From: Spirochaetaceae bacterium
Lineage (GTDB): Bacteria; Spirochaetota; Spirochaetia; SZUA-6; Bin103
Direction: 5' to 3'
Length of the DNA: 64,000 nt
NCBI GenBank assembly: GCA_028821475.1
Contig: JAPPGB010000173.1
Span: forward strand, 1-64,000
The notes beneath the pieces were generated by a model. The model saw only the letters and a program-made list of their open reading frames with translations. It was not told the DNA's origin and did not search any database. The translations under genes and the position numbers were made by a program. Below, one piece after another: positions 38,829 through 51,268 of this stretch (positions are counted from its first letter, which is position 1; each line of letters begins with the position of its first letter).

Positions 38829-40580
38829 ATGAATGCCCATGACCGCTATCTCCCGGTGTGGTTTAACCGAATTCGAACACGGCAAATAACTTTACCCAGG
38901 TTTCAACGATTTACCGCTTGGGGACACGCCGAAGTTTCCGGATTGTTGACGACTGTTCTACGCGGGCTCCCTTCTGGGGCAGCGCTGATACTTGAGGTTG
39001 GAGACGAAGAGAAGTTCCCTAGCAGAACGATGGTCGACGCGCCTGATTCGGGAGATCGAGTCACGGAGCAACTTCTTGATGGCCAACAACGCCTGACCGC
39101 GCTCTGGCGTAGTCTGCACGACAAGTACGACGACCGTACCTATCTCATTGGCTTCGAGGACGATCCGGGTAGGGAAGGAACGCGCCTTCCTTACGTGTAC
39201 GGACACGCCCGGTGGTCGAGGAATGGTAGGCGGTATCCTCTCTGGACCGATGATCCTGCAGACTGTTGGCGGCGAGGACTGATCCCGCTCTTACTGCTGC
39301 GTCCGGAGGACATTAGCAACGAGATTGACGCATGGATAGACGCGGCAATACCGAACGGATCTGCAGACACGTTGGCAGACTACAGAGCGATTGGTCATAC
39401 AATCCAAACGCTTCGGACAAGTGTTCGCGAATTCAATCTTCCGTACCTCGCCTTGCCGACGACCACGCCCAAGGAAGTGGCGTTGGATGTGTTTATCAAG
39501 ATGAACACAAGCTCCGTCAAGCTCTCGACCTACGACATCGTCGTGGCGCTTGTGGAAGAGGAGACCGGTAAGTCGCTACATGAGCATGTCGATGAGCTGA
39601 GGGACGCAGTGCCGAGGGCAAGCGACTACGCCGATCTGCCAAGTTTAGTTCTTGATGTTGTAGCACTGCGTCAGGATCGAAGTCCGAGCCAAGCAGGTTA
39701 TCGAGGAATCGACTACAAAAGAATGGTGAACGAGTGGGCCTCGGTGAAGGACGGCATACGGGGAATGGTTACGTTCCTTGAGGACGAGAGTATATTCGAT
39801 GATCAGCGCCTTCCGAGCTACACGGCCATTCCGATTATTGCGGCCCTCTTGGAGCATCTGCCCACTCAACCTGACCAATTGGGTAACGCGTGCCATCTGT
39901 TGAGGCGGTTTCTCTGGAAGGCGTTTCTGACAAGTCGTTACGAGCAGTCCTCAGCAACCAATGCGTTACAGGATTATCGGGGACTTCGCCGGGTGTTAAC
40001 CGAGGGAGCTGACGAGGATTCGGTGCCGATACTCAATGTGGACTCCTTCCCGTGTCCAACCAAGGAGATGGTGCTCCGGGCCGATTGGCCAAAGCGGAAG
40101 TCTATTCTCGGCCGAGGTCTGCTGGCACTGATGTTGAAGGCCGGCGCCGAGGATCTGGCGGACGGGGCACGAGCGACAGTCACGTCCATCACTTCAAAGG
40201 ATCACCCGCGCGAGTACCATCATCTGTTCCCGGTCTCAACGTTGGAGGACGCCAAGGTTCCCGACGATCAAATCTACAGAGCCTTGAATTGTGCCCTAAT
40301 CACTTGGCGGACGAACAGGACAATTGCCAACAAGGACCCCGTGGCCTACCTCAAGGAGCGTGCGGACAGTAACGTCCTTGGAGAGCGCGAGTTGCGTAGT
40401 CGGCTATGTACGCATTTCATACCATATTCGGAGCTCGCAGTTGGATATCACGGCCTATCTGACCAGGATAGGCGCCTTCGGGTTAAGCACGACTACAGCG
40501 CATTTCTTGACGCCCGCGCCGAATTGCTTGTTGAAGCGGCCGAAGGAGCGTGCTCAGGCGAGCGGATTCGAGCACAGTGA
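38829..40580 (+). CDS. GmrSD-like DUF262/HNH protein (type IV restriction candidate)
   Basis: 583 residues. The N-terminal DUF262 (ParB-like NTPase) domain shows LPRFQRFTAW (22-31), VTEQLLDGQQRLTALWRSL with DGQQR at 84-88, and FIKMNTSSVKLSTYDIVVAL. The C-terminal quarter has EYHHLFP (about 461) and LNCALITWRTNRTIANKDPVAYL-type spacing (landmarks ALITWRTNR, PVAYL), an HNH nuclease as in DUF1524. This is the fused GmrS-GmrD architecture known to attack DNA with modified cytosines. The central 200 residues are helical. Low GC relative to host and its place among defence genes support acquisition by transfer. Start ATG 38829 lies 12 bp after a likely -10 box. Confidence 0.85.
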   Translation: MNAHDRYLPVWFNRIRTRQITLPRFQRFTAWGHAEVSGLLTTVLRGLPSGAALILEVGDEEKFPSRTMVDAPDSGDRVTEQLLDGQQRLTALWRSLHDKYDDRTYLIGFEDDPGREGTRLPYVYGHARWSRNGRRYPLWTDDPADCWRRGLIPLLLLRPEDISNEIDAWIDAAIPNGSADTLADYRAIGHTIQTLRTSVREFNLPYLALPTTTPKEVALDVFIKMNTSSVKLSTYDIVVALVEEETGKSLHEHVDELRDAVPRASDYADLPSLVLDVVALRQDRSPSQAGYRGIDYKRMVNEWASVKDGIRGMVTFLEDESIFDDQRLPSYTAIPIIAALLEHLPTQPDQLGNACHLLRRFLWKAFLTSRYEQSSATNALQDYRGLRRVLTEGADEDSVPILNVDSFPCPTKEMVLRADWPKRKSILGRGLLALMLKAGAEDLADGARATVTSITSKDHPREYHHLFPVSTLEDAKVPDDQIYRALNCALITWRTNRTIANKDPVAYLKERADSNVLGERELRSRLCTHFIPYSELAVGYHGLSDQDRRLRVKHDYSAFLDARAELLVEAAEGACSGERIRAQ

Positions 40581-40932: not shown

Positions 40933-41880
40933 TCAGGTTTGAATCCGTCTGGTGAAGTTCGCGGAGGTCGGCATTGGCACCATCGTGGTCGTCAAGGCTG
41001 TGATCGGATAGAGCAGGATCAGGATGTTGTATGTCGTGTCGATAGCTTCGGCGAGGCATTCGTGTCGTTGCCCGTTGCAATCAGTGACGGCGAGAGGAAC
41101 GGCCTTGGTCATCCTGCGGTGAATGGGTATGACTGGCCACAGAAGATGGTCTGGCGTAACTGCCTCGACAGTGGGGCGTCCGAACTGGGCGACAAAAGCG
41201 GGCGATGGCTCTATACGACGCACGGGCGCCCGGAATCCCGAACCTTGATCGTTCTCTATCGGCTCCAGCGCAAAGACAACGCAAGCTCTGGGGTTCGTAC
41301 GGGCAAATTCACGCGCAGCAGCGTAGACCGATGACCCAAACGTTCGCGCAAGCGTGATCGGCGTCTTGATGTCCAACGGGTAGTCGGCGGCGTGCTCAGC
41401 GAAGGTAGGGCCCTTGAAGAGGAGGAAGCGCGCAAAGTTGTTGGCTTCCCGTTCGAACTGATCCGCCACCTCCGGGGACAGGGTCTTGTTACAGTCCTGA
41501 AAGAAGCGAAACAGTTTGCGATGCGTGGGGATTTCGTGGTGCCCGGCCTCGTGTAGCTTGAGGAACGTCTGCTTCGCGTCGACGACAGTGTTGTCGATGT
41601 GGATGACCGCTTCCTTGGCGTCGTAGAGCCCGAAGACCTTCCCTATCGCGGACTTGATGCGAGCGCCTGCGACAGCAGCCTTCCCTCCGAGGTACGAGAC
41701 GATGGTGGCGGGATCAAACGCACCGGTCGGCGTAACGCGAACATTGGCTGCAGAAAGGATGTCATCGACCGGGACGGGGAAGCGGTCCCAAGCATCCGCG
41801 CGGTCGAGGAGCCCTTGGGCTTGTTCCTCGACCGCGCGAAGATCATCGCCGTCGAGCGTGCTATCGTCAGGTCTTGTCAT
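40933..41880 (-). CDS. ImmA/IrrE family metallopeptidase
   Basis: 315 residues. HEAGH at 110-114 is the gluzincin motif, within TFLKLHEAGHHEIPTH, and the downstream helix FEREANNFARFLLF provides the third ligand. ATG 41880 follows AGGAG at 8 nt and overlaps the end of the HTH gene by 14 bp, so both are one operon. ImmA/IrrE proteins cleave or sequester their partner XRE repressor, usually to derepress mobile-element or stress genes (established for ICEBs1 ImmA/ImmR and Deinococcus IrrE/DdrO). The C-terminal 120 residues are not recognised. It may control this island. Confidence 0.87.
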   Translation of the reverse strand: MTRPDDSTLDGDDLRAVEEQAQGLLDRADAWDRFPVPVDDILSAANVRVTPTGAFDPATIVSYLGGKAAVAGARIKSAIGKVFGLYDAKEAVIHIDNTVVDAKQTFLKLHEAGHHEIPTHRKLFRFFQDCNKTLSPEVADQFEREANNFARFLLFKGPTFAEHAADYPLDIKTPITLARTFGSSVYAAAREFARTNPRACVVFALEPIENDQGSGFRAPVRRIEPSPAFVAQFGRPTVEAVTPDHLLWPVIPIHRRMTKAVPLAVTDCNGQRHECLAEAIDTTYNILILLYPITALTTTMVPMPTSANFTRRIQT

Positions 41881-42232
41881 GTGCTTTTCTCCTGCTTCGG
41901 ATGAACTGGAGGTACTCCAGCAACTCGGATTCCTCATCTTCGGTTAAGTGGTACTCGGCGAAAGTGGCCACCCGACCATGGCGCCGGTTATCGGAATCCC
42001 GGGTCGAGGACATGAGGTAGCCGGCCTTGTCCATCAAGTTCTCAAAGCTGATTGCGTAGATCTCAGCGAGGGAGTGAAGGATGTTGGGTGAAGGTTTCCG
42101 AATCCTGTCATTCTCGATTTGGCTGAGATAGGCGTTAGAGACTTGCCTGTTCGTTGCCTCTTCGACTTCGCGCAGAGTCATCTTCCGATCCGTGCGAATC
42201 GAGGCAAGATATTGTCCGAGCGTAGGTTTCAC
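41867..42232 (-). CDS. XRE-family transcriptional regulator paired with ImmA/IrrE
   Basis: 121 residues from GTG 42232, which follows AGAGGAGC. The HTH_XRE domain runs from TLGQYLASIRTDRKMTLREV to SNAYLSQIENDRIRKPSPN and ILHSLAEIYAISFENLMDKA (about residues 4-70). The tail ends ELLEYLQFIRSRRKAHDKT, the short helical 'ELLEYL.FI' segment common to repressors cleaved by ImmA-type peptidases. Likely a repressor of its own promoter and perhaps of other island genes. Confidence 0.87.
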   Translation of the reverse strand: MKPTLGQYLASIRTDRKMTLREVEEATNRQVSNAYLSQIENDRIRKPSPNILHSLAEIYAISFENLMDKAGYLMSSTRDSDNRRHGRVATFAEYHLTEDEESELLEYLQFIRSRRKAHDKT

Positions 42233-42296
42233 GCTGCTCCTCTGGGCACCGGGGCGGAACCATCTCCACCGCGTGCAATTGGCTTGGCGGACTGGG

Positions 42297-42326
42297 AGTA
42301 TATCCCCTGGGTCGCATCCGGCTCAA
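42297..42326 (-). promoter_or_regulatory. Promoter of the XRE-ImmA operon
   Basis: On the minus strand TTGAGC (42326-42321) and TATACT (42302-42297) are separated by 18 bp, about 65 bp upstream of GTG 42232. The stretch 42327-42583 shows no gene. Confidence 0.5.
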
Positions 42327-42583
42327 GCATGCAGACATTCGATAGTGCATCATTTTACGTGTTCTTTTCTTGTAGTGGTTTGCGTACCGCACTCTGGACC
42401 GCCATGGGGCTGCTTGTGGCCGCCACCACGAGATAGGCCAGCAGCGTAGTCAGCCAGTGAGCAGTCATCACTGTGTGGACACACGCACGATCATGGCGGC
42501 CGTCGTGCTCGCGGGCCTAGCCGCTTGCGCTGGGACCGCGCTGACTTAGAGCGTCAGCAGTTCATCAGGTGTCCTCCGGCGAA

Positions 42584-42615
42584 CGCTACGTGCCAGCGTA
42601 GCGCGAGTCGCGCTA
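42584..42615. terminator. Two overlapping, mutually exclusive stem-loops after the SDH-type protease gene
   Basis: CGCTACG (42584-42590) pairs with CGTAGCG (42597-42603), and TAGCGCG (42599-42605) pairs with CGCGCTA (42609-42615). Both stems are perfect 7-mers and share 42599-42603, so only one can form at a time. They lie 30 bp beyond the stop of the minus-strand protease gene. No T-tract follows. Confidence 0.5.
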
Positions 42616-42645
42616 AGCCGCGTCATCGTCCTTACTAGGCGATCA

Positions 42646-43584
42646 TCACTCCATATGTTCGGCGTGGGGGACACTATCGGACGAAACGCCTCCTCCATCC
42701 TTTTCAGTTTCTCCTCCTTTATTTTCGGCGTGATCATTATCGTGTGTTCCATGGTCATCTCCTTGATCCTCGTCAGAAGTATGAGATCTCATTTCTGGCG
42801 GCGCAATCACCTTCACATGGGGCGGATCCGTCGAAGCGTCCGTGTGGCCCTCCGAGACGGCCTGTTTGTATGCCTCCAACTCATCTTTCGATGGATCTCT
42901 GACACGGTCGAACAGCCCCTTGGCCTCCGTTACATTTATCACGAAGGCGTGGTCGGGGTATCCCCTCACCAGTGTGTTTAGCGATCCGGGGGTGAGATTG
43001 TTCGTTATTTGCAACAGCCTTTGGCCATAAGCCTCGGCTACGGCTACACTACGACTAACGGCCGCCACTTTGTAGGGATCGATTTGGGCAGCGATGGGAC
43101 TGAAAATACCCGACACCAAGTCGGAGGCGATCCTACATGCTGTGGCAGTGGAGATGCTCGTGTACGACCGCCTTATTAGAAGCAGCATGTACTTCTCGAA
43201 AGCCTTGAACGCATCGGTGTATAACACCTCCAAAGAGTTGGTCGTCTCCAGGCCAGAAGACCTTTGCGCGATTTCGTCTGGCTTCCTAATCTGAACATCC
43301 AGCGGCCCTAGTTCTCCAGTAAGGGTCATGGCAACGGACGTAGCCCCGATTGCCACCAACGTCCCTGCACTCTTGCAGCGACCAAATACCACCACATCGA
43401 CGTCATCAAAAAAAGCGTGAAGGGTCGTGATTAGGCGGAACGCCTGATGAATGTCGCCTCCCACGGTCGTCAGCAATAGAGATACGTCACCTGGATCTCC
43501 TTCTCTTTCGCTCCAAGCAGACACGATGCCTGTTATGACTTCATTCACCCCTTCTTCGTTGATCTCGCCGCTGTAGACGATCAT
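42646..43584 (-). CDS. SDH-type (PF01972) ClpP-fold serine protease
   Basis: 312 residues from ATG 43584; a TTG at 43596 would add four. The ClpP/crotonase fold is shown by LLLTTVGGDIHQAFRLITTL (37-56), the nucleophile region FGRCKSAGTLVAIGA with Ser72, and ELGPLDVQI (91-99), the signature of the 'serine dehydrogenase proteinase' family. No signal peptide or membrane helix is seen. The last 60 residues are charged and low-complexity (rich in D, H, E, K). It lies 1 kb upstream of, and divergent from, the ubiquitin-like operon. A role in cleaving conjugates or targets is conceivable but unproven. Confidence 0.8.
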   Translation of the reverse strand: MIVYSGEINEEGVNEVITGIVSAWSEREGDPGDVSLLLTTVGGDIHQAFRLITTLHAFFDDVDVVVFGRCKSAGTLVAIGATSVAMTLTGELGPLDVQIRKPDEIAQRSSGLETTNSLEVLYTDAFKAFEKYMLLLIRRSYTSISTATACRIASDLVSGIFSPIAAQIDPYKVAAVSRSVAVAEAYGQRLLQITNNLTPGSLNTLVRGYPDHAFVINVTEAKGLFDRVRDPSKDELEAYKQAVSEGHTDASTDPPHVKVIAPPEMRSHTSDEDQGDDHGTHDNDHAENKGGETEKDGGGVSSDSVPHAEHME

Positions 43585-43691
43585 CGTTCTATCCAAGGTG
43601 TCTGTCTCCCACGCTACTGCCTTTCCTCAGTGCGCCTTCGCTGCACCTCTGCCTATCCACACGATCTCCCCTGCAAGTTCCGACGAGGGGG

Positions 43692-43910
43692 CTACTGCTC
43701 CCAGCGCGCGGCAGCAGCCTGTTTTGCGATCTGCTGGCGCTGCTCTGAGGTGACTGCTTCGACCCGGGCCTCGCCGCCCCTCTGGCCGGCAGCCTGTTTG
43801 GCCGTGTCGACGTACTGTGCATCGGTCTCGCCCGTGGCCAAGCGCCTGATATGCACGCCGTGGGCTATCGGGTTGTTGGGGCGCTCATCCCCCCGCGCGG
43901 GCCAAGTCAT
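43692..43910 (-). CDS. Small basic protein with GGxAR...AKxAAxARW motif
   Basis: 72 residues from ATG 43910, which follows AGGAG at 7 nt. The C-terminal half, AAGQRGGEARVEAVTSEQRQ then QIAKQAAAARWEQ, matches a short helical motif found in many small uncharacterised bacterial proteins. A sigma-70-like promoter lies 22 bp upstream. The frame remains open to 44141 but has no support there. Function unknown; nucleic-acid binding is only a guess from charge. Confidence 0.6.
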   Translation of the reverse strand: MTWPARGDERPNNPIAHGVHIRRLATGETDAQYVDTAKQAAGQRGGEARVEAVTSEQRQQIAKQAAAARWEQ

Positions 43911-43931
43911 GGTGAATCTCCTATTACGTAG

Positions 43932-43961
43932 ACTATAGTGGCAATCCCCGGCGAAAGTAAA
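43932..43961 (-). promoter_or_regulatory. Promoter of the small basic protein gene
   Basis: Minus-strand TTTACT (43961-43956) and TATAGT (43937-43932) are separated by 18 bp. The -10 box lies 22 bp before ATG 43910. Confidence 0.5.
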
Positions 43962-44511
43962 CGGATGCACTACCCGACATTCGGTAGCTCCTCTCGGTGA
44001 GCGTGGGTCGGGACGTGAGTGGAGGCGACTGACGGAAGCGACTGCGGTCGAACTGGACGCGAGCGCACTATAGCAGAGGCACCAGTCGCCTGACAGCCAG
44101 ATTCCATGTTCGACCCCTGCAGCGTACCCGCTGGTCGGCATGGTGTGATCGCCACCTCTCGTCGCCAGCGGCGGAACCGGCGTTCAGGTGGGTCAGACTG
44201 TTACGGTGGAAGAGTCCCCGCCGCGAGGCGACACTGCCGCGCTACTCGCCCTTTGGTCGTGGCCCGAAATGGCGCGCATGCTGCGGGCCGAACCCGTAGT
44301 GGGCGGGCATGTCGACTAGCGTCATGTGGTTGCACACCTCATCGTCCTGGTTCTCACCGCACCACGGTACCTCATCCGGTGGGTAGAGTGGATCGCGCTG
44401 TAGGTTTCGTATAAATAATTATATACAAATGAATTACATTCGACATTTTCTCTGCAGAACCACGTCTCCAGGGCGGTTTTCGTATCAGGCCAGAAAAGTG
44501 GGGACCTATGC
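43962..44511. other. Non-coding stretch with AT-rich patch upstream of the ubiquitin-like operon
   Basis: No gene is recognised in 550 bp. At 44409-44426 GTATAAATAATTATATAC is an imperfect palindrome in the most AT-rich patch of the window, about 85 bp upstream of the operon promoter. It could be an operator or an architectural-protein site. Confidence 0.4.
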
Positions 44512-44540
44512 TTGACTAACTTAGCATGCGTGTATATGTT
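44512..44540 (+). promoter_or_regulatory. Promoter of the ubiquitin-like operon
   Basis: TTGACT (44512-44517) and TATGTT (44535-44540) with a 17-bp spacer form a good sigma-70-like promoter. It predicts transcription from about 44547. That rules out starts at 44512 or 44536 and supports TTG 44596 for the first gene. Confidence 0.62.
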
Positions 44541-44595: not shown

Positions 44596-44952
44596 TTGGA
44601 AACACTGGACAAGATTGGGACCGACCAGACGGAGTGCGACGACTCCGGAGTGGAAGCAATCCTCGATGACACTATTGACCTTGCGGAGTACGCAAAGCTC
44701 GGTAAGAGGCCGCCGTTGGCGAAGGGCTATCGGTTCACGGTGAACGGCGACTCCTACGTTGTGCACGATCCTGCACCGACGGGGTTGGAGCTGCTGACGC
44801 TGGCGGGCCTGCTGCCTGCGAAGGAGTACACGCTGCGGGTGAAGTCCGTCGGCGAGAGGCCTCGCAAGGTGAGGCTCGATGAGAAGGTCGACCTCTGCCG
44901 ACAGGGTGTCGAGAAGTTCAAGGCGCTGCCGCGCGACCAGACCGAGGGCTGA
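44596..44952 (+). CDS. Ubiquitin-like protein, multiubiquitin-type beta-grasp domain
   Basis: 118 residues from TTG 44596, preceded by AAGGAGG with 8-nt spacing. An acidic N-terminal tail (about 35 residues) is followed by one beta-grasp domain: YRFTVNGDSYVVHDPAPTG, LELLTLAGLLPAKEYTLRVK and VRLDEKVDLCRQGVEKFKAL. This is the pattern of the Multi_ubiq family (PF14452). Only one domain is present, whereas relatives may have two or three. The C-terminus ends RDQTEG with a single terminal glycine, suitable for adenylation by the E1 encoded downstream without processing. It is 3 bp from the E2 gene. Confidence 0.82.
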   Translation: METLDKIGTDQTECDDSGVEAILDDTIDLAEYAKLGKRPPLAKGYRFTVNGDSYVVHDPAPTGLELLTLAGLLPAKEYTLRVKSVGERPRKVRLDEKVDLCRQGVEKFKALPRDQTEG

Positions 44953-44955
44953 AGC

Positions 44956-45357
44956 ATGGTGCCGCGTCGGGACTTCCACCTGCTGCCGCAGGACGAGAAA
45001 TTCCTGCAAGAGTACGGACGCCCTTGGGAGACCGTCGCGGATGGGTCCCAATGGGTGCTCATCCACGAGTTTCCGACGCACACGGGGTACATCCATCCCC
45101 AGGTGACGGCGGCAATTCGCATGGAGACCGGCTATCCGAACGCAGAACTGCACATGGTGTACTTTTATCCGGCTCTCGCGCGCAAGGACGGGGAGGCGAT
45201 CGGCGCGACGCAGGCTAGCCAGATAGTTGACGGAAAGACGTATCAGCGCTGGTCGCGCCACCGCACCGCGCAGAATCCATGGAGGCCGGGTGTCGACGGC
45301 CTGGACACCCATGTCTTCCTGATTGAGGACTGGCTTGCGAGGGAGTTCGATCGATGA
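44956..45357 (+). CDS. Prokaryotic E2-like protein (Prok-E2_E type) without cysteine
   Basis: 133 residues. Landmarks ELHMVYFYPAL (65-75), DGKTYQRWSRHRTAQNPWRP (92-111) and VDGLDTHVFLIEDWLAREF match the E-type prokaryotic E2-like family (PF14462) associated with multiubiquitin genes. The whole protein contains no cysteine, so it cannot form the thioester of classical E2 enzymes. A serine or threonine, for instance Ser100 next to the conserved Arg-His-Arg, may carry the Ubl as an oxyester (inference). Its stop overlaps the E1 start by 4 bp. Confidence 0.82.
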   Translation: MVPRRDFHLLPQDEKFLQEYGRPWETVADGSQWVLIHEFPTHTGYIHPQVTAAIRMETGYPNAELHMVYFYPALARKDGEAIGATQASQIVDGKTYQRWSRHRTAQNPWRPGVDGLDTHVFLIEDWLAREFDR

Positions 45358-46769
45358 GCGTGCCGACGAGCCTATCACTCTCCGGTGATCAGTATGAGCA
45401 CCTGAGGAAATTCCTGTTTCCGGGCGATGGGAAAGAGGCGGTGGCGCTTCTGCTCTGCGGGCGGCGGGCGGGGGATCGACGCGAGCGCCTAGTGGTTCGG
45501 GAGGTTCAAGGCATCCCCTACGACCGTTGCTCCGAACGCACGGGAGCGCGGGTAACTTGGCCGCCGGAGTACATGGCCCCGATGCTCGACCGCGCGGCCG
45601 AGGAGAGGCTTTCGGTGGTGAAGGTGCACAGTCACCCGTCGGGGTGTACCACGTTCTCGGCGACGGACGATGAAGGGGATGCCCGTCTCTTACCGATGAT
45701 CCGAGGGTGGGTGGAAGCGGACATTGCGCACGGAAGTGTCGTGATGCTTCCTAACGGGGTGATGTTCGGTCGGGTCCTGCGCTCTGGTGGGTCGTTGGAG
45801 CCGATCGACTGCATTGCGGTTGCAGGCGACGATCTCCGTTTCTGGTACGCCGACTCGGGGGGAGAGGGGGTACCGGACTTCGCCGCGTCTCACGCGCAGC
45901 TCTTCGGGGAGGGAACGATTGAGCGGATGCGGCGCTTGTCGATCGCGGTCGTTGGAGCGTCCGGGACAGGCAGTCCCGTAATCGAGCAGCTCCAGCGCTT
46001 GAATGTCGGAGAGCTTGTCGTTGTCGATGATGACCACATGGAAGAGCGCAACGTCATTCGGGTGTTGAATTCGACGATGCAGGACGCTGACGAAAAGCGG
46101 CTCAAGGTCGACGTCCAGGCGGATGCCATCAACCAAGTCGGGTTAGGGACACGGGTGATCCGCATCGGTCGGAACCTTTGGGATCCGAAGGTGGTTCGGA
46201 CCGTAGCGCAGTGCGACGTGTTGTTCGGATGCATGGACAGCGTCGATGGGCGGTACCTGTTGAACTCTCTGGCCAGTTACTACACGCTGCCGTACTTCGA
46301 CATCGGGGTGAGGCTCCAGGCCGTACCGAGCGGGCCCCGGAAGGGGCGGATTCGCGAGGTATGCGGCACGGTCAACTACGTGCGTCCGGGACGGTCGAGC
46401 CTGATGAGCCGGGGACTGTTCACGATGAGCGATGTCGCAGCAGCGGGCTTGCGGCGCAACGATCCCGATGCGCACACCCAGCAGGTGAAGGACGGCTACA
46501 TCAGGGGGGCGGCCGTTCAGCGCCCGGCTGTGATCAGCGTTAACATGTTCGCTGCTTCCCTCGCCGTGAACGAATTCCTGGCCCGGTTGCATCCGTTCCG
46601 GGAAGAACCGAACGGGACCTGGGCTGCGGTGGAGTTCAGCCTCGCAAGCATGGAGCTGTACGGCGATCCCGATGAAGGGATCTGCGAACTCACGGCGGGG
46701 GATGTTGGCAAGGGCGACGTCAAGCCGTTGCTCGGCTTGCTGGAACTGGCGGAAAGGCGAATGGCGTGA
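45354..46769 (+). CDS. JAB deubiquitinase-like domain fused to ThiF/E1-like adenylyltransferase
   Basis: 471 residues. N-terminal JAB/MPN domain (1-150): Glu28, then VVKVHSHPSGCTTFSATDDE, giving an intact zinc motif H92-x-H94-x7-S102-x-x-D105. C-terminal E1 domain: nucleotide loop GASGTG (201-206), DDDHMEERNVIR (225-236) and CMDSVDGRYLLN (293-304). Where ThiF-like enzymes usually have PGxxCxxC, this one has PGRSSLMS (345-352), with serine at both cysteine positions. This removes the usual zinc or thiol cysteines and agrees with the cysteine-free E2. It should adenylate the Ubl C-terminus and also remove or process conjugates through JAB. Overlaps both neighbours by 4 bp. Confidence 0.88.
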   Translation: MSVPTSLSLSGDQYEHLRKFLFPGDGKEAVALLLCGRRAGDRRERLVVREVQGIPYDRCSERTGARVTWPPEYMAPMLDRAAEERLSVVKVHSHPSGCTTFSATDDEGDARLLPMIRGWVEADIAHGSVVMLPNGVMFGRVLRSGGSLEPIDCIAVAGDDLRFWYADSGGEGVPDFAASHAQLFGEGTIERMRRLSIAVVGASGTGSPVIEQLQRLNVGELVVVDDDHMEERNVIRVLNSTMQDADEKRLKVDVQADAINQVGLGTRVIRIGRNLWDPKVVRTVAQCDVLFGCMDSVDGRYLLNSLASYYTLPYFDIGVRLQAVPSGPRKGRIREVCGTVNYVRPGRSSLMSRGLFTMSDVAAAGLRRNDPDAHTQQVKDGYIRGAAVQRPAVISVNMFAASLAVNEFLARLHPFREEPNGTWAAVEFSLASMELYGDPDEGICELTAGDVGKGDVKPLLGLLELAERRMA

Positions 46770-47113
46770 ATCGGTTCCGCCGCTTCGTCAGGCGGTTCTT
46801 CGCACGGGTGGAGCAATTGCTCGTTCCGCCCTACCGAACGATCGTAGTGGAGGAGTCGTTGTCGAGGCGGCTCAGGCGGCGTGCCGTTTATATCGTGCGT
46901 GAGGACGGGTTCGACGAGCAGGTCGCTCTTCTATGCCCATGCGGTTGCGGACAGGTTCTTCACATGAACTTGCTGCCCGACGAACGGCCTCGCTGGTGCG
47001 TGGACCAGAACGTCGATGGGACGGTGACACTGCATCCGTCGGTTCGGCGCACGAAGGGATGCGCCTCTCACTTCTGGTTGCGGAACGGCCGGATCCGGTG
47101 GTGTAAGGACTGA
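46766..47113 (+). CDS. DUF6527 family protein
   Basis: 115 residues from GTG 46766, overlapping the E1 stop. A strongly basic N-terminus (NRFRRFVRRFFARVEQ) precedes VALLCPCGCGQVLHMNL with Cys57, Cys59 and Cys61, then RPRWCVDQN, TVTLHPSVRR and GCASHFWLRNGRIRWCKD. The C-C-C-H-type pattern suggests a bound metal. This is the conserved shape of DUF6527, a recurrent last gene in multiubiquitin/E2/E1 operons. Its role there is not established to my knowledge; target recruitment or an E3-like function would be guesses. Confidence 0.8.
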   Translation: MNRFRRFVRRFFARVEQLLVPPYRTIVVEESLSRRLRRRAVYIVREDGFDEQVALLCPCGCGQVLHMNLLPDERPRWCVDQNVDGTVTLHPSVRRTKGCASHFWLRNGRIRWCKD

Positions 47114-47204: not shown

Positions 47205-48027
47205 GTGGGGGCCTACCGGGGCCCGGAGGAGCCGGCGAGTGAACGGCACACCCGATTCCGACTCCGAGGGGAACGATCGTGGCCAGCGCTGCTGGACGTG
47301 GCATACGACAGTGACGGCATCGATCTCGCTGCGGTGCGCCGCTACCGGCAGGAGCGCGTGCGCGCCGAGATGGCCGCCAGGGGCATCGGCGCCGTCATCC
47401 TCAGCGATTCCGTCAACATTCGATATGTGAGCGGCAGCCGGAACATGCAGGTCTTCACGTCCCGCAACGCCCCGTCCCGCTATCTCGTACTCACCGGGGA
47501 CCGTTCGATCCTGTTCGAGTTCACCGGGTGCGAGCACCTCGCGGACGGGCTCGACACCATCGACGAAGTACGACCGGCGCTGACGGCCAGCTACGTGGCC
47601 GCCGGGCCAGACATCGGTGAGCGCGAGCATACGTGGGCGGCGCAGATGTCGCAGTTGCTGCGGCAGCTGCTGGGGCCGGGTCAACACCGCGTGGGCATCG
47701 AACGGATGAATGCGGGAGCGGCGATTGCCCTGCAAGCGCATGGTCACGTGCTGGTGGATGCGCAGGAACCGGTGGAAATGGCACGCGCCATCAAGTCCCC
47801 GGGTGAGATCCAATGCTTCAGGGCGTCGGTGCGCATGACCGAGCGCGCCGTGGCCGATATGCGTTACGCACTCGCGCCCGGTCTGACGGAGAACGAGCTG
47901 TGGTCGGTGCTGCACAAGTCCGTCATTGCCGGCAACGGCGAATACTGCGAGACACGCCTGCTGTCATCGGGGCCACGGACCAACCCGTGGTTCCAGGAAT
48001 CGGCGTCGAGGGTGATCCAGCCCAACG
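47205..48027 (+). pseudogene. Truncated M24 (DddP-like) metallopeptidase-family gene
   Basis: The frame from GTG 47205 encodes the creatinase/prolidase-type N-terminal domain and the start of the M24 domain: SDSVNIRYVSGSRNMQVFTS, ILFEFTGCEHLADGL, VGIERMNAGAAIALQ, AIKSPGEIQCFRASVRMTE and YCETRLLSSGPRTNPWFQES. This fits DddP-like DMSP lyases or prolidase relatives. It breaks off after RVIQPN, just before the LDTD... metal-ligand region, and continues into a foreign oppC 3' end, so no active site remains. High GC marks it as host-like DNA rather than island DNA. Confidence 0.75.
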
Positions 48028-48077
48028 GGCCTCCGCGACGCCGCCGACCCCTACGCCGCGCATTGACCCGCCTCGCT
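48028..48077 (+). repeat. oppC 3'-end repeat, copy D (right boundary of island)
   Basis: The 29-bp core (48028-48056) is identical to copies A and B and still spells the oppC tail LRDAADPYAAH with its stop, although no oppC gene precedes it. The bases after the stop (ATTGACCCGCCTCGC) also resemble the others. It directly follows the cut end of the M24 gene. Confidence 0.75.
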
Positions 48078-48130
48078 GTGCACCGGCCACGCCATTTTGA
48101 CGCGGAGCGACGATCTGTTACGCTGAGGAT

Positions 48131-51100
48131 ATGAGAAGCAAGCTGATCGGCATCTCCTGCCTGCTGGCACTCGCAGCGGCGGCCACGGCCGCTTATGCCG
48201 AGGATGCCGCGCCCGCGATCTCTTCCATCAGGTTCCACGACCACGGCTCCCCGGCGAGAGGCGGCACGTACGAACGCGGCGAGCGGGTCCTGGTGGAAGT
48301 GCGGTTCGACCGGGCGGTGAAGGCAACCGGCAGTCCGCGGCTGGCACTGACCATCGGGACGCATACGCGGTACGCAACCCATTCGGGACCGGGCGGATCG
48401 TCTCCGGACGCCTTCGATACCCTGTACTTCGACTACGTCGTGCAGGCGGGTGACCGCGATGAAGACGGGATCAGCTTCGCCGCCAACGCGCTCAGCCTGA
48501 ACGGCGGCACCATCAGGTCCGCGGACGGAACCACCGACGCCGACTTGAACCACGACGCGGTTCCATCCTGGGGCGGTCACAAGGTGAACAGCGACCTGGC
48601 GTCGCCGCCGCTAGTGATCGGCATTTCCGTGTGGCCGCCGGCGAAGGGCGACACCTACGAACAGGGGGAGACGATCAACGTGCGCGTGGAATTTCACCGC
48701 GCGGTGACCGTGACCGGCAGTCCTCAGTTGGCGTTGACCATCGGGACGCAGACGCGGCATGCCGCGTACACAAGGTCTTGGTGGGGCGGGAGCGTGCTGC
48801 TTTTCAGCTACGCGGTGCAGGAAGGAGATCGTGATGAGGACGGGATCGGCATCCGCAACGATGCGCTGTCCCTGAACGGCGGAACGATCGAATCCGCGGA
48901 CGGCACCGCCGACGCTGTTCTGAGGCATGCCGCGCAGACCCGCCGGCGCAACGGCAAGGTCGACGGCAGCCGGGTCACGATCCCGTCGGTGGAGGGTATC
49001 TCCTTCATCTCCTCCCCGGCGAGGGGTGACACCTACGAACTCGGCGAGACGGTGGAGGTGGAGGTCGAATTCGACGGAGCCGTCAGGACGACCGGCGAAC
49101 CGCGGTTGGCGCTGACCGTCGGAGCGCGCACGCGGTACGCTACCTACAACGGGTGGGGGCGTGACGTCCTGTTCTTCGCCTATACCGTGCGGGAGGATGA
49201 CCGGGACCAGGACGGGATCAGCATCGCGGCCAACGCGCTGGAGCTCCACGGCGCAACCGTCACAGCAGCCGACGGCAAGACCTCCGCCGATCTGATGCAC
49301 GCGGAGGTAGACGCCGACGGAGGCAGCAAGGTGGACGCCGGCCTGGTCACGCCGCCGCGGGTGACGGCTGTATCTCTCATCTCCTCTCCTGGGAGGGGTG
49401 ACACGTACGAGCTCGGCGAGGAGGTCGTGGTGCAGGTCGAGTTCGACCGGGCTGTGGTGGTGACCGGCGATCCCCGGCTGGCGTTGACCATCGGGTCCCA
49501 GACGCGGTACGCGGCCTACTCCGCGGCGTGGGAGGACGACCGGTACGTGTACTTCAGCTACGCCGTGCAGGCGGCGGACCGGGATGAGGATGGGATCAGC
49601 ATCGCGGCGAACGCACTGGTCGTCGTCGGCGGGTCGATCACGGCCACCGACCGCACGACCGGCGCCGACCTCACGCACGCAGCGGTAACCCCGGTGAGCG
49701 GCGGCAGGGTGGACGGCAGCCGCGATGTTACGCCGCCGCGCGTGAGGAGCATCGCCTTCGTCTCCTCTCCGGAGCGCAGCGGCACGTACCAGCTCGGGGA
49801 GACCGTCGAGGTGGTAGTCAGATTCGACGGCGCGGTGAAGTCCACCGGCGAACCGCGGTTGGCGCTGACCGTCGGAACGCGGACGCGGTACGCGATCTTC
49901 TCCGGCTGGGGCAGCGATGCACTGTACTTCAGCTACACCGTGCAGGCGGGTGACCGCGACGAGGACGGCATCGGCATCCCGGCCGACTCGCTGGCGCTCG
50001 GCGACGCAACGATCACGGCCGCGGACGGCGTGACCGGTGCCGTGTTGACGCATGCGGCTATGGCTCCCGCCGGTGCCGGCAAGGTGAACGGCAGCGATGC
50101 CGCGCCGCCGCGGGTGAGGGAGATCCGGTTCGCCTACTCGCCGGCGCGGGGCGCCACCTACGAGCTGGGCGAGACCGTGGAGGTGGAAGTCGAGTTCGAC
50201 CGGGCGGTGGAGGCGACCGGCGAGCCCCAGGTCGCACTGACCATCGGGACGCAGACGCGCTACGCGAGCTTTTCCGGCTGGGGAGGCGAGACGCTGTACT
50301 TCGAGTACGCCTTGCAGGCGGGTGACCGCGACGAGGACGGCATCGGCATCGAGGCCAACGCGCTGGTTCTGAACGGCGGGACCATCACGGCGGTGGACCG
50401 CGTCACCGCCGCCGACCTGACACACGACGCGTTGGCAAGCGGCCGCGAGGTTGACGGCAGCCTGGTCACGCCACCCGGGGTCAGTGACATCTACTTCGTG
50501 TCCTCCCCGGCACGGGGCGGCACCTACGAACTGGGGGAGGCGATCGAGGTGCTGGTCGAGTTTGACCGGGCGGTGACGGTGACCGGCAGTCCGCTGGTTG
50601 AACTGACCATTGGGGCACAGACACGGCATGCCGCCTTCTCCGAGTGGTGGGGACAGAACCAGCACGCACACTTCAGCTACACGGTGCGGGAAGATGACCG
50701 TGATGAGCGCGGGATCCGCATCGCGGCCAACGCGGTGTTGCTGAACGGCGCGACCATCACGGCCGCCGATGGCATCACCGCCGCCGATCTGACGCATCCG
50801 GCGGTGGCCGGCGCCCCGATTTTCAAGGTGCGCGGAAGTTTGGTTTCGGCCCCCGCGGTGAGTGCCATCTACCTCGACAACCACGTTCCGCCTCCCACCG
50901 GCGACACCTACGTGCTCGGTGAGAGAGTTCGGGTGTGGGTCGAGTTCGACAAGGAGATCACCGTGACCGGCAGCCCGCAGGTGGCGCTGACCATCGGCGG
51001 TGAGACCAGGCAGGCGTACTACTCCGGCTTCAGTGTGGCGGTCATGTCTGATGGCGGCACGATGGTCGACAAGGGCGTGCTGTCATTCGACTACTACGTG

Positions 51101-51268
51101 CAGGCAACGGACCGCGATGAGGACGGGGTCGGCTTTCCGGCCAACGCGCTGAATCTCAACGGTGGGACCATCAAGCACGCCGGCGACGGCTCCACCGATG
51201 CCGACCTGATGCACGACGCCGTGCGCCCCGACCCCACCCGCAAGGTGGACGGTAGCCGGACCGAATGA
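48131..51268 (+). CDS. Secreted multi-repeat protein with eight Ca-loop Ig-like domains
   Basis: 1045 residues. Signal peptide 1-23 (LIGISCLLALAAAATAAYA). Eight tandem domains of about 115-130 residues follow, each with the same scheme: ISSPARGDTYELGE..V-V-V-FDRAV, TGxPRLALTIG, YFSYxVQAGDRDEDGIxIxANAL and LNGGTIxxADG. Each carries the DxDxDG loop (DRDEDG; one repeat has DRDQDG and one the degraded DRDERG), which suggests calcium-stabilised rigid rods. No membrane anchor, sorting signal or autotransporter domain is present at the C-terminus, so it is probably secreted or a fibre subunit. The GAGG ribosome site is 3 bp before ATG 48131. TTGACG and TACGCT lie just upstream. Confidence 0.8.
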   Translation: MRSKLIGISCLLALAAAATAAYAEDAAPAISSIRFHDHGSPARGGTYERGERVLVEVRFDRAVKATGSPRLALTIGTHTRYATHSGPGGSSPDAFDTLYFDYVVQAGDRDEDGISFAANALSLNGGTIRSADGTTDADLNHDAVPSWGGHKVNSDLASPPLVIGISVWPPAKGDTYEQGETINVRVEFHRAVTVTGSPQLALTIGTQTRHAAYTRSWWGGSVLLFSYAVQEGDRDEDGIGIRNDALSLNGGTIESADGTADAVLRHAAQTRRRNGKVDGSRVTIPSVEGISFISSPARGDTYELGETVEVEVEFDGAVRTTGEPRLALTVGARTRYATYNGWGRDVLFFAYTVREDDRDQDGISIAANALELHGATVTAADGKTSADLMHAEVDADGGSKVDAGLVTPPRVTAVSLISSPGRGDTYELGEEVVVQVEFDRAVVVTGDPRLALTIGSQTRYAAYSAAWEDDRYVYFSYAVQAADRDEDGISIAANALVVVGGSITATDRTTGADLTHAAVTPVSGGRVDGSRDVTPPRVRSIAFVSSPERSGTYQLGETVEVVVRFDGAVKSTGEPRLALTVGTRTRYAIFSGWGSDALYFSYTVQAGDRDEDGIGIPADSLALGDATITAADGVTGAVLTHAAMAPAGAGKVNGSDAAPPRVREIRFAYSPARGATYELGETVEVEVEFDRAVEATGEPQVALTIGTQTRYASFSGWGGETLYFEYALQAGDRDEDGIGIEANALVLNGGTITAVDRVTAADLTHDALASGREVDGSLVTPPGVSDIYFVSSPARGGTYELGEAIEVLVEFDRAVTVTGSPLVELTIGAQTRHAAFSEWWGQNQHAHFSYTVREDDRDERGIRIAANAVLLNGATITAADGITAADLTHPAVAGAPIFKVRGSLVSAPAVSAIYLDNHVPPPTGDTYVLGERVRVWVEFDKEITVTGSPQVALTIGGETRQAYYSGFSVAVMSDGGTMVDKGVLSFDYYVQATDRDEDGVGFPANALNLNGGTIKHAGDGSTDADLMHDAVRPDPTRKVDGSRTE

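Follow-up and report, generated by a model that had tools for sequence, protein, structure and literature searches.

The operon and its neighborhood

The window, a stretch of 64,000 nucleotides from a Spirochaetaceae bacterium, encodes a complete bacterial ubiquitin-like tagging operon. Genes for a ubiquitin-like protein (Ubl), an E2-like protein, a JAB-E1 fusion and a DUF6527 protein follow one another in close succession, with 4-base overlaps between the E2 and E1 genes and between the E1 and DUF6527 genes. The system extends past the segment from 44956 to 46769, with the Ubl gene upstream, the DUF6527 gene downstream and CapH/CapP regulators farther upstream. Its features are as follows.

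40933 to 41937, minus strand: CapP-like ImmA/IrrE peptidase with HExxH (PADLOC capP, 5.1e-15; PF06114, 4e-07)
41867 to 42232, minus strand: CapH-like HTH repressor (PADLOC capH, 2e-05; HTH_VI, 4e-09)
42646 to 43596, minus strand: ClpP-like protein (PF00574, 1.6e-05; PF01972, 4.3e-04 [below cut-off])
44508 to 44540, plus strand: conserved promoter/operator with a TTGACT -35 element and a TTAGCATGC half-site, a match in a scan for promoter-like sequences
44596 to 44952, plus strand: Ubl (BubA-like), 118 aa, TTG start, one Multi_ubiq domain (PF14452, 1.2e-15)
44956 to 45357, plus strand: E2-like protein (BubB-like), 133 aa, no Cys (Prok-E2_E, PF14462, 5.4e-40)
45354 to 46769, plus strand: JAB-E1 fusion (BubCD-like), 471 aa (Prok-JAB, PF14464, 4e-07; ThiF, PF00899, 2e-21)
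46766 to 47113, plus strand: DUF6527 protein, 115 aa (PF20137, 2.4e-23)

Identification of this operon as Bub-type, orthologous to Citrobacter BubA/BubB/BubCD, is well supported. Genes for the Ubl (PF14452), the E2 (PF14462) and the JAB-E1 are adjacent, and the order Ubl-E2-E1-DUF6527 is kept across the loci compared. Homology to the characterized Citrobacter proteins in the PDB is full length, with E values of 4.3e-92 for E1 against BubCD and 1.7e-27 for E2 against BubB; profiles built from relatives gave 1.9e-174 (E1) and 1.7e-45 (E2) against the PDB. Neither expected catalytic position holds a Cys (Ser100 in E2, Tyr382 in E1). The sequence-only reading had placed these genes in a Bub pathway, and the Pfam domains, the conserved gene order and the PDB orthologues BubB and BubCD bear that assignment out. 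In a phylum-wide search PF14462 was rare (2 of 393 genomes, the source genome counted), and the sequence diversity used below was therefore drawn from plasmids and other phyla. A phage collection searched for relatives of the E1 yielded none, and IMG/VR gave relatives on two contigs, L036/L048 (clear) and L037/L049 (partial). On a Microbacterium plasmid (L031:2344-4132) the Bub E1 lies in two frames, a possible frameshift, and the E2 is intact.

Citrobacter Bub (PDB 9ea4, 9ea5, 9ea8, 9eae, and 9eav) consists of full-length orthologues and resembles this operon in its JAB-E1 fusion, the WSRH motif of its E2, the E1 Tyr and the lack of Cys at the expected active sites. The Ubl described here is a single domain encoded by a separate gene, whereas in Citrobacter a single residue numbering runs through the Ubl (155-229) and on into the E2 (from about residue 230); in 9eae, BubB is numbered 234-361, after a Ubl ending at 229, which fits a Ubl-E2 fusion. 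Ubl and E2 are likewise fused in related enterobacterial operons, unlike here, and form one open reading frame in 14 loci (L014, L015, L018-L028, and L033). A Gly (EG, NG or DG) immediately precedes the junction in these fused forms, and the JAB domain may cleave them. Our Ubl ends ...RDQTEG-stop, an ending shared with its close relatives (TEG-stop in most of them), so that the terminal Gly is exposed without processing; a C-terminal Gly that is exposed or can be exposed is what is expected of a Bub Ubl. The mechanically listed Ubl start at 44512 falls on the promoter element, and we set the start at the TTG at 44596, which is preceded by the Shine-Dalgarno sequence AAGGAGG and supported by an alignment of upstream regions with the ATG of relatives.

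Three other systems invite comparison. The same four gene products make up operon class 6e of Iyer, Burroughs, and Aravind (2006), described as a polyUbl, an inactive E2/RWD-like protein, a JAB-E1 and a metal-binding protein Y (PMC1779556). Bil (type II BIL) shares the Ubl, E2, E1, and JAB components, but BilB has a catalytic Cys138 with CEHH and BilD a Cys domain with Cys417 (PMC11354881), whereas the E2 here has no Cys of any kind, hence no CEHH-associated catalytic Cys, and the E1 crossover region has no conserved Cys. CBASS Cap2 likewise has an E1 of ThiF type and an acceptor position in its crossover loop; it is an E2-E1 fusion that uses Cys, whereas this operon has a free-standing E2, a JAB-E1 fusion and Tyr at the crossover position.

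All relatives examined carry a DUF6527 gene in their Bub loci. The product of this gene is likely a zinc-binding protein with a putative CxCxC...CxxH site, in which C57 and H102 are conserved in 34 of 34 sequences and C61 and C99 in 32 of 34.

The capH and capP genes supply the nearby DNA damage regulator (CapW, CapH plus CapP, or CapK plus CapS) that is a common, not universal, companion of Bub. CapW or CapH plus CapP accompanies 219 of 544 Bub operons, and phage protection by Bub has not been shown (PMC13373217). The promoter block at 44508 to 44540 is unique in the window (0 copies expected) and recurs in L003-L007 and L012, relatives in which it separates capH from the Ubl gene. In capH-bub intergenic regions, the bub promoter is flanked by inverted TCAAGCRYGC and TTAGCRYGC half-sites that probably form the operator for CapH; in this operon the left one appears degenerate. 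Whereas capH adjoins the block in relatives, here about 2.27 kb carrying the ClpP-like gene intervenes. This insert (42242-44507) occurs once in the genome, so nothing points to a mobile element present in several copies. Related genes of ClpP/SDH type directly follow DUF6527 in three other loci (L024:4674-5390, L031:4759-5187, and L034:4544-5290), in the last of which the gene overlaps the DUF6527 gene, and the ClpP-like protein is a possible protease partner or accessory of Bub.

Among the other neighbors, a GmrSD_N (DUF262-type) protein adjoining capP (38829-40580, plus strand) is another possible defense gene. Directly after the operon, a truncated-looking gene (47205-48134, plus strand) encodes Creatinase N and the first part of peptidase M24, followed by a secreted-looking protein of 1,045 aa (48131-51268, plus strand) made up of numerous similar units, each about 100 aa long, with a weak Big_7 match. 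A 757-aa open reading frame antisense to the latter is probably a shadow frame.

Candidate acceptor residues in E2 and E1

The absence of Cys from the E2, which had drawn attention to this operon, was confirmed on the 133-aa translation. At the Cys frequency of the 64-kb window, a Cys-free protein of this length arises with a probability of about 0.27, which makes a single instance unremarkable and places the argument on the family pattern. We aligned 35 E2s, comprising the window protein, the Citrobacter protein and proteins from 33 loci in several phyla; identity to the window protein ranged from 28 to 73%, and the rows are not independent but include deep branches. W99, S100, R101 and H102 (WSRH) and W109 were invariant in all 35, no conserved Cys column was found among them, and S100 was the only invariant Ser, Thr or Cys. 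Ser100 (codon 45253-45255, within QRWSRHR) stands 9 residues before W109. In classic E2s the catalytic Cys and a Trp are 8 residues apart, close to this spacing.

The predicted E2 structure (pLDDT 90) matched BubB (9eae_C) with a Z score of 21.0. Below BubB, the ranked matches were nearly all E2 or UEV folds with Z scores of about 7.4 to 9.0, values that are middling by themselves in a list that is consistent. HHalign detected no match between the Bub E2 and a Cap2-like E2. Invariance of WSRH, the lack of any conserved Cys and the location of Ser100 where the catalytic Cys is expected all favor the residue that the sequence-only reading had put forward. The E2 very probably uses Ser where other E2s use Cys, and a Ser100 oxyester is likely.

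Three sites in the E1 bear on how the Ubl would reach Ser100.

46497 to 46499, plus strand: E1 Tyr382, at the crossover-loop Cys position, invariant in 34 of 34 E1s
46230 to 46232, plus strand: E1 Cys293, the only invariant Cys of E1, two residues before D295 and equivalent to ThiF C125
46398 to 46409, plus strand: E1 Ser349 to Ser352, in the place of the zinc CxxC of ThiF, MoeB, and Cap2, degenerate here

The JAMM residues H92, H94, S102 and D105 (about 45627-45668) are conserved, as are the adenylation residues G201, G204-G206, N233, R236, K251 and D295, which occupy invariant columns. The predicted E1 structure was poor (pLDDT 58), and the E1 was analyzed through alignments. Of three alignment modes, two put Tyr382 in the column of the Cap2-like crossover Cys and the other missed it by one column. 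Tyr382 lies 30 residues after position 352, and in each of the two Cap2-like E1s the second zinc Cys and the crossover Cys are exactly as far apart. The ThiF crossover Cys is 8 residues before a conserved Pro and Tyr382 is 9 before P391; MAFFT places the ThiF Cys a few columns from Tyr382 because the ThiF loop is shorter. In other E1s, ATG7 Cys507 and UBA5 Cys250 are located in the crossover loop (PMC12355090). PDB entry 9eav differs from 9ea4 by a JAMM mutation and a Tyr-to-Phe change at chain residue 372, the Tyr382 position; we take the latter to be a designed mutation, which by itself does not give the residue's role.

By sequence, the best E1 candidate for an acceptor or helper role is Tyr382, ahead of Ser349 and Ser352. 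Tyr382 could be the acceptor itself, forming an E1 Tyr ester from which the E2 Ser ester is made. Its invariance, its alignment and spacing at the crossover position and the change to Phe in 9eav all point this way, and this version of the relay is quite possible, if short of probable; it is not known to have a precedent. The same data are accounted for by direct transfer of the Ubl from the adenylate to E2 Ser100, with no covalent E1 intermediate and with Tyr382 positioning or activating groups. Direct transfer is consistent with the existence of E1-like enzymes that lack a catalytic Cys, such as the yeast Tcds, in which a crossover-loop Ser-to-Ala substitution gave only a moderate effect (PMC13139853), and with the unusual reactivity that a Tyr phenol ester would have; an invariant Tyr at the E1 acceptor Cys position fits an acceptor at least equally well. 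We regard direct transfer as just as credible, without leaning toward it. Both routes are compatible with an oxyester on Ser100, and direct transfer is an alternative only to the Tyr-ester version.

A more radical departure would make the E2 an inactive RWD- or UEV-like scaffold, with the E1 acting on targets directly. Iyer et al. called the class 6e E2 inactive (PMC1779556), whereas we argue for Ser100 as a nucleophile; given that label, the conservation around Ser100 could reflect a scaffold. The lack of Cys in the E2 would also suit a scaffold. Against it stands the strict invariance of WSRH, at the active-site region, among E2s of 28 to 73% identity to the window protein, and we consider this reading unlikely.

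E1 cysteines and the remnant of a zinc site

The sequence-only reading held that the E1, like the E2, lacks the expected cysteines. The PGRSSLMS segment at residues 345 to 352 on which it relied was confirmed, but the E1 contains eight cysteines, of which Cys293 is invariant. Cys337, given in that reading as an example of a Cys that might carry a thioester instead, was rejected as a nucleophile; it is Cys in only 17 of 34 rows, and the position is Thr in Citrobacter.

An E1 thioester on Cys293, leaving only the E2 to use Ser, would agree with the conservation of this residue in 33 of 33 aligned E1s. Cys293 precedes the Mg/ATP aspartate D295 by two residues, however, and corresponds to ThiF C125 and MoeB C128 in LDCTDN. 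This Cys is conserved in E1-like proteins that have a separate crossover Cys, which makes a structural role likelier, and we judge a Cys293 thioester to be improbable.

PGxxCxxC had been taken as the thioester motif that this E1 should carry. Alignments with ThiF, MoeB, and Cap2-like E1s identify it instead as half of a zinc site. All three alignment modes pair E1 positions 349 and 352 with ThiF C169/C172, with MoeB C172/C175 and with the CxxC found in two Cap2-like E1s, and a zinc site of two CxxC-type pairs has been described in SUMO E1 (PMC12355090). The zinc tetracysteine of ThiF and MoeB (two CxxC) is absent from the window E1, which has no CxxC. CLxC is retained in five Bub E1s (L029, L030, L032, L033, and L034), and all but L034 of these have a second CPxC about 96 residues later. 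Synechocystis offers an example of a Bub E1 of this CLxC type. All five loci keep WSRH in E2 and the invariant Tyr in E1, so that keeping or losing the zinc pair is not linked to the E2 nucleophile.

The sequence-only reading had named an alignment in which the PG motif was not the catalytic loop as grounds for giving up its proposal, and the alignments with ThiF, MoeB, and Cap2-like E1s are of that kind. An oxyester on Ser349 or Ser352 would suit the Ser or Thr found at S348/S349 in most members and the one-time prediction of the Cap2 CxxC (C493/C496, inactive as a double mutant) as the E1 active site, but we find it hardly tenable, since the positions vary freely (S, T, C, G, or N at 349; S, D, C, Q, or A at 352), align with the zinc CxxC of ThiF and MoeB and, in four of the five CLxC members, are accompanied by the second CPxC that a zinc tetracysteine site requires, and the Cap2 catalytic Cys has been assigned to C513 by ThiF homology (PMC10097602). 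That PGxxCxxC in ThiF-type E1s is a zinc half-site corrects an easy mistake; its loss alone is no argument for oxyester chemistry. Nor does a missing catalytic Cys in itself imply a Ser ester, as the yeast Tcds work without one (PMC13139853).

A putative cysteine-free relay

Bub pathways have been reported to use oxyester intermediates. The explanation that we favor, and hold to be likely, is that this is a Bub operon, probably induced by DNA damage via CapH/CapP, with a Ser-based oxyester relay at the E2. From gene content, homology, the E2 fold and residue conservation we infer the following chemistry. The Ubl would present its free C-terminal Gly, which the ThiF half of the E1 would adenylate, as the intact ATP-binding and adenylation residues suggest. 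It would then pass to E2 Ser100, either straight from the adenylate or via an ester on E1 Tyr382, forming an oxyester with the Ser rather than a thioester; we base this step on the invariant WSRH at the E2 active-site region and the lack of a conserved Cys. The E2 would hand the Ubl to a target, and the N-terminal JAB domain, with its JAMM motif intact, would reverse the conjugates; where relatives encode Ubl and E2 as a fusion, the same domain may also cut the two apart. The DUF6527 protein, likely a zinc protein, might, at a guess, help in target choice.

In a more specific version, a thioester-free relay would run from the adenylate to a Tyr382 ester and on to a Ser100 ester, and the conjugates would in some lineages be handled by the nearby ClpP-like protease; we offer this combination tentatively, as a possibility rather than an expectation. 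Tyr-ester and Ser-ester chemistry of Bub may already have been published.

For the E1, these comparisons direct attention away from the two serines and toward a single invariant tyrosine. For the family as a whole, they suggest a ubiquitin-type relay without catalytic cysteines that is conserved across several bacterial phyla.
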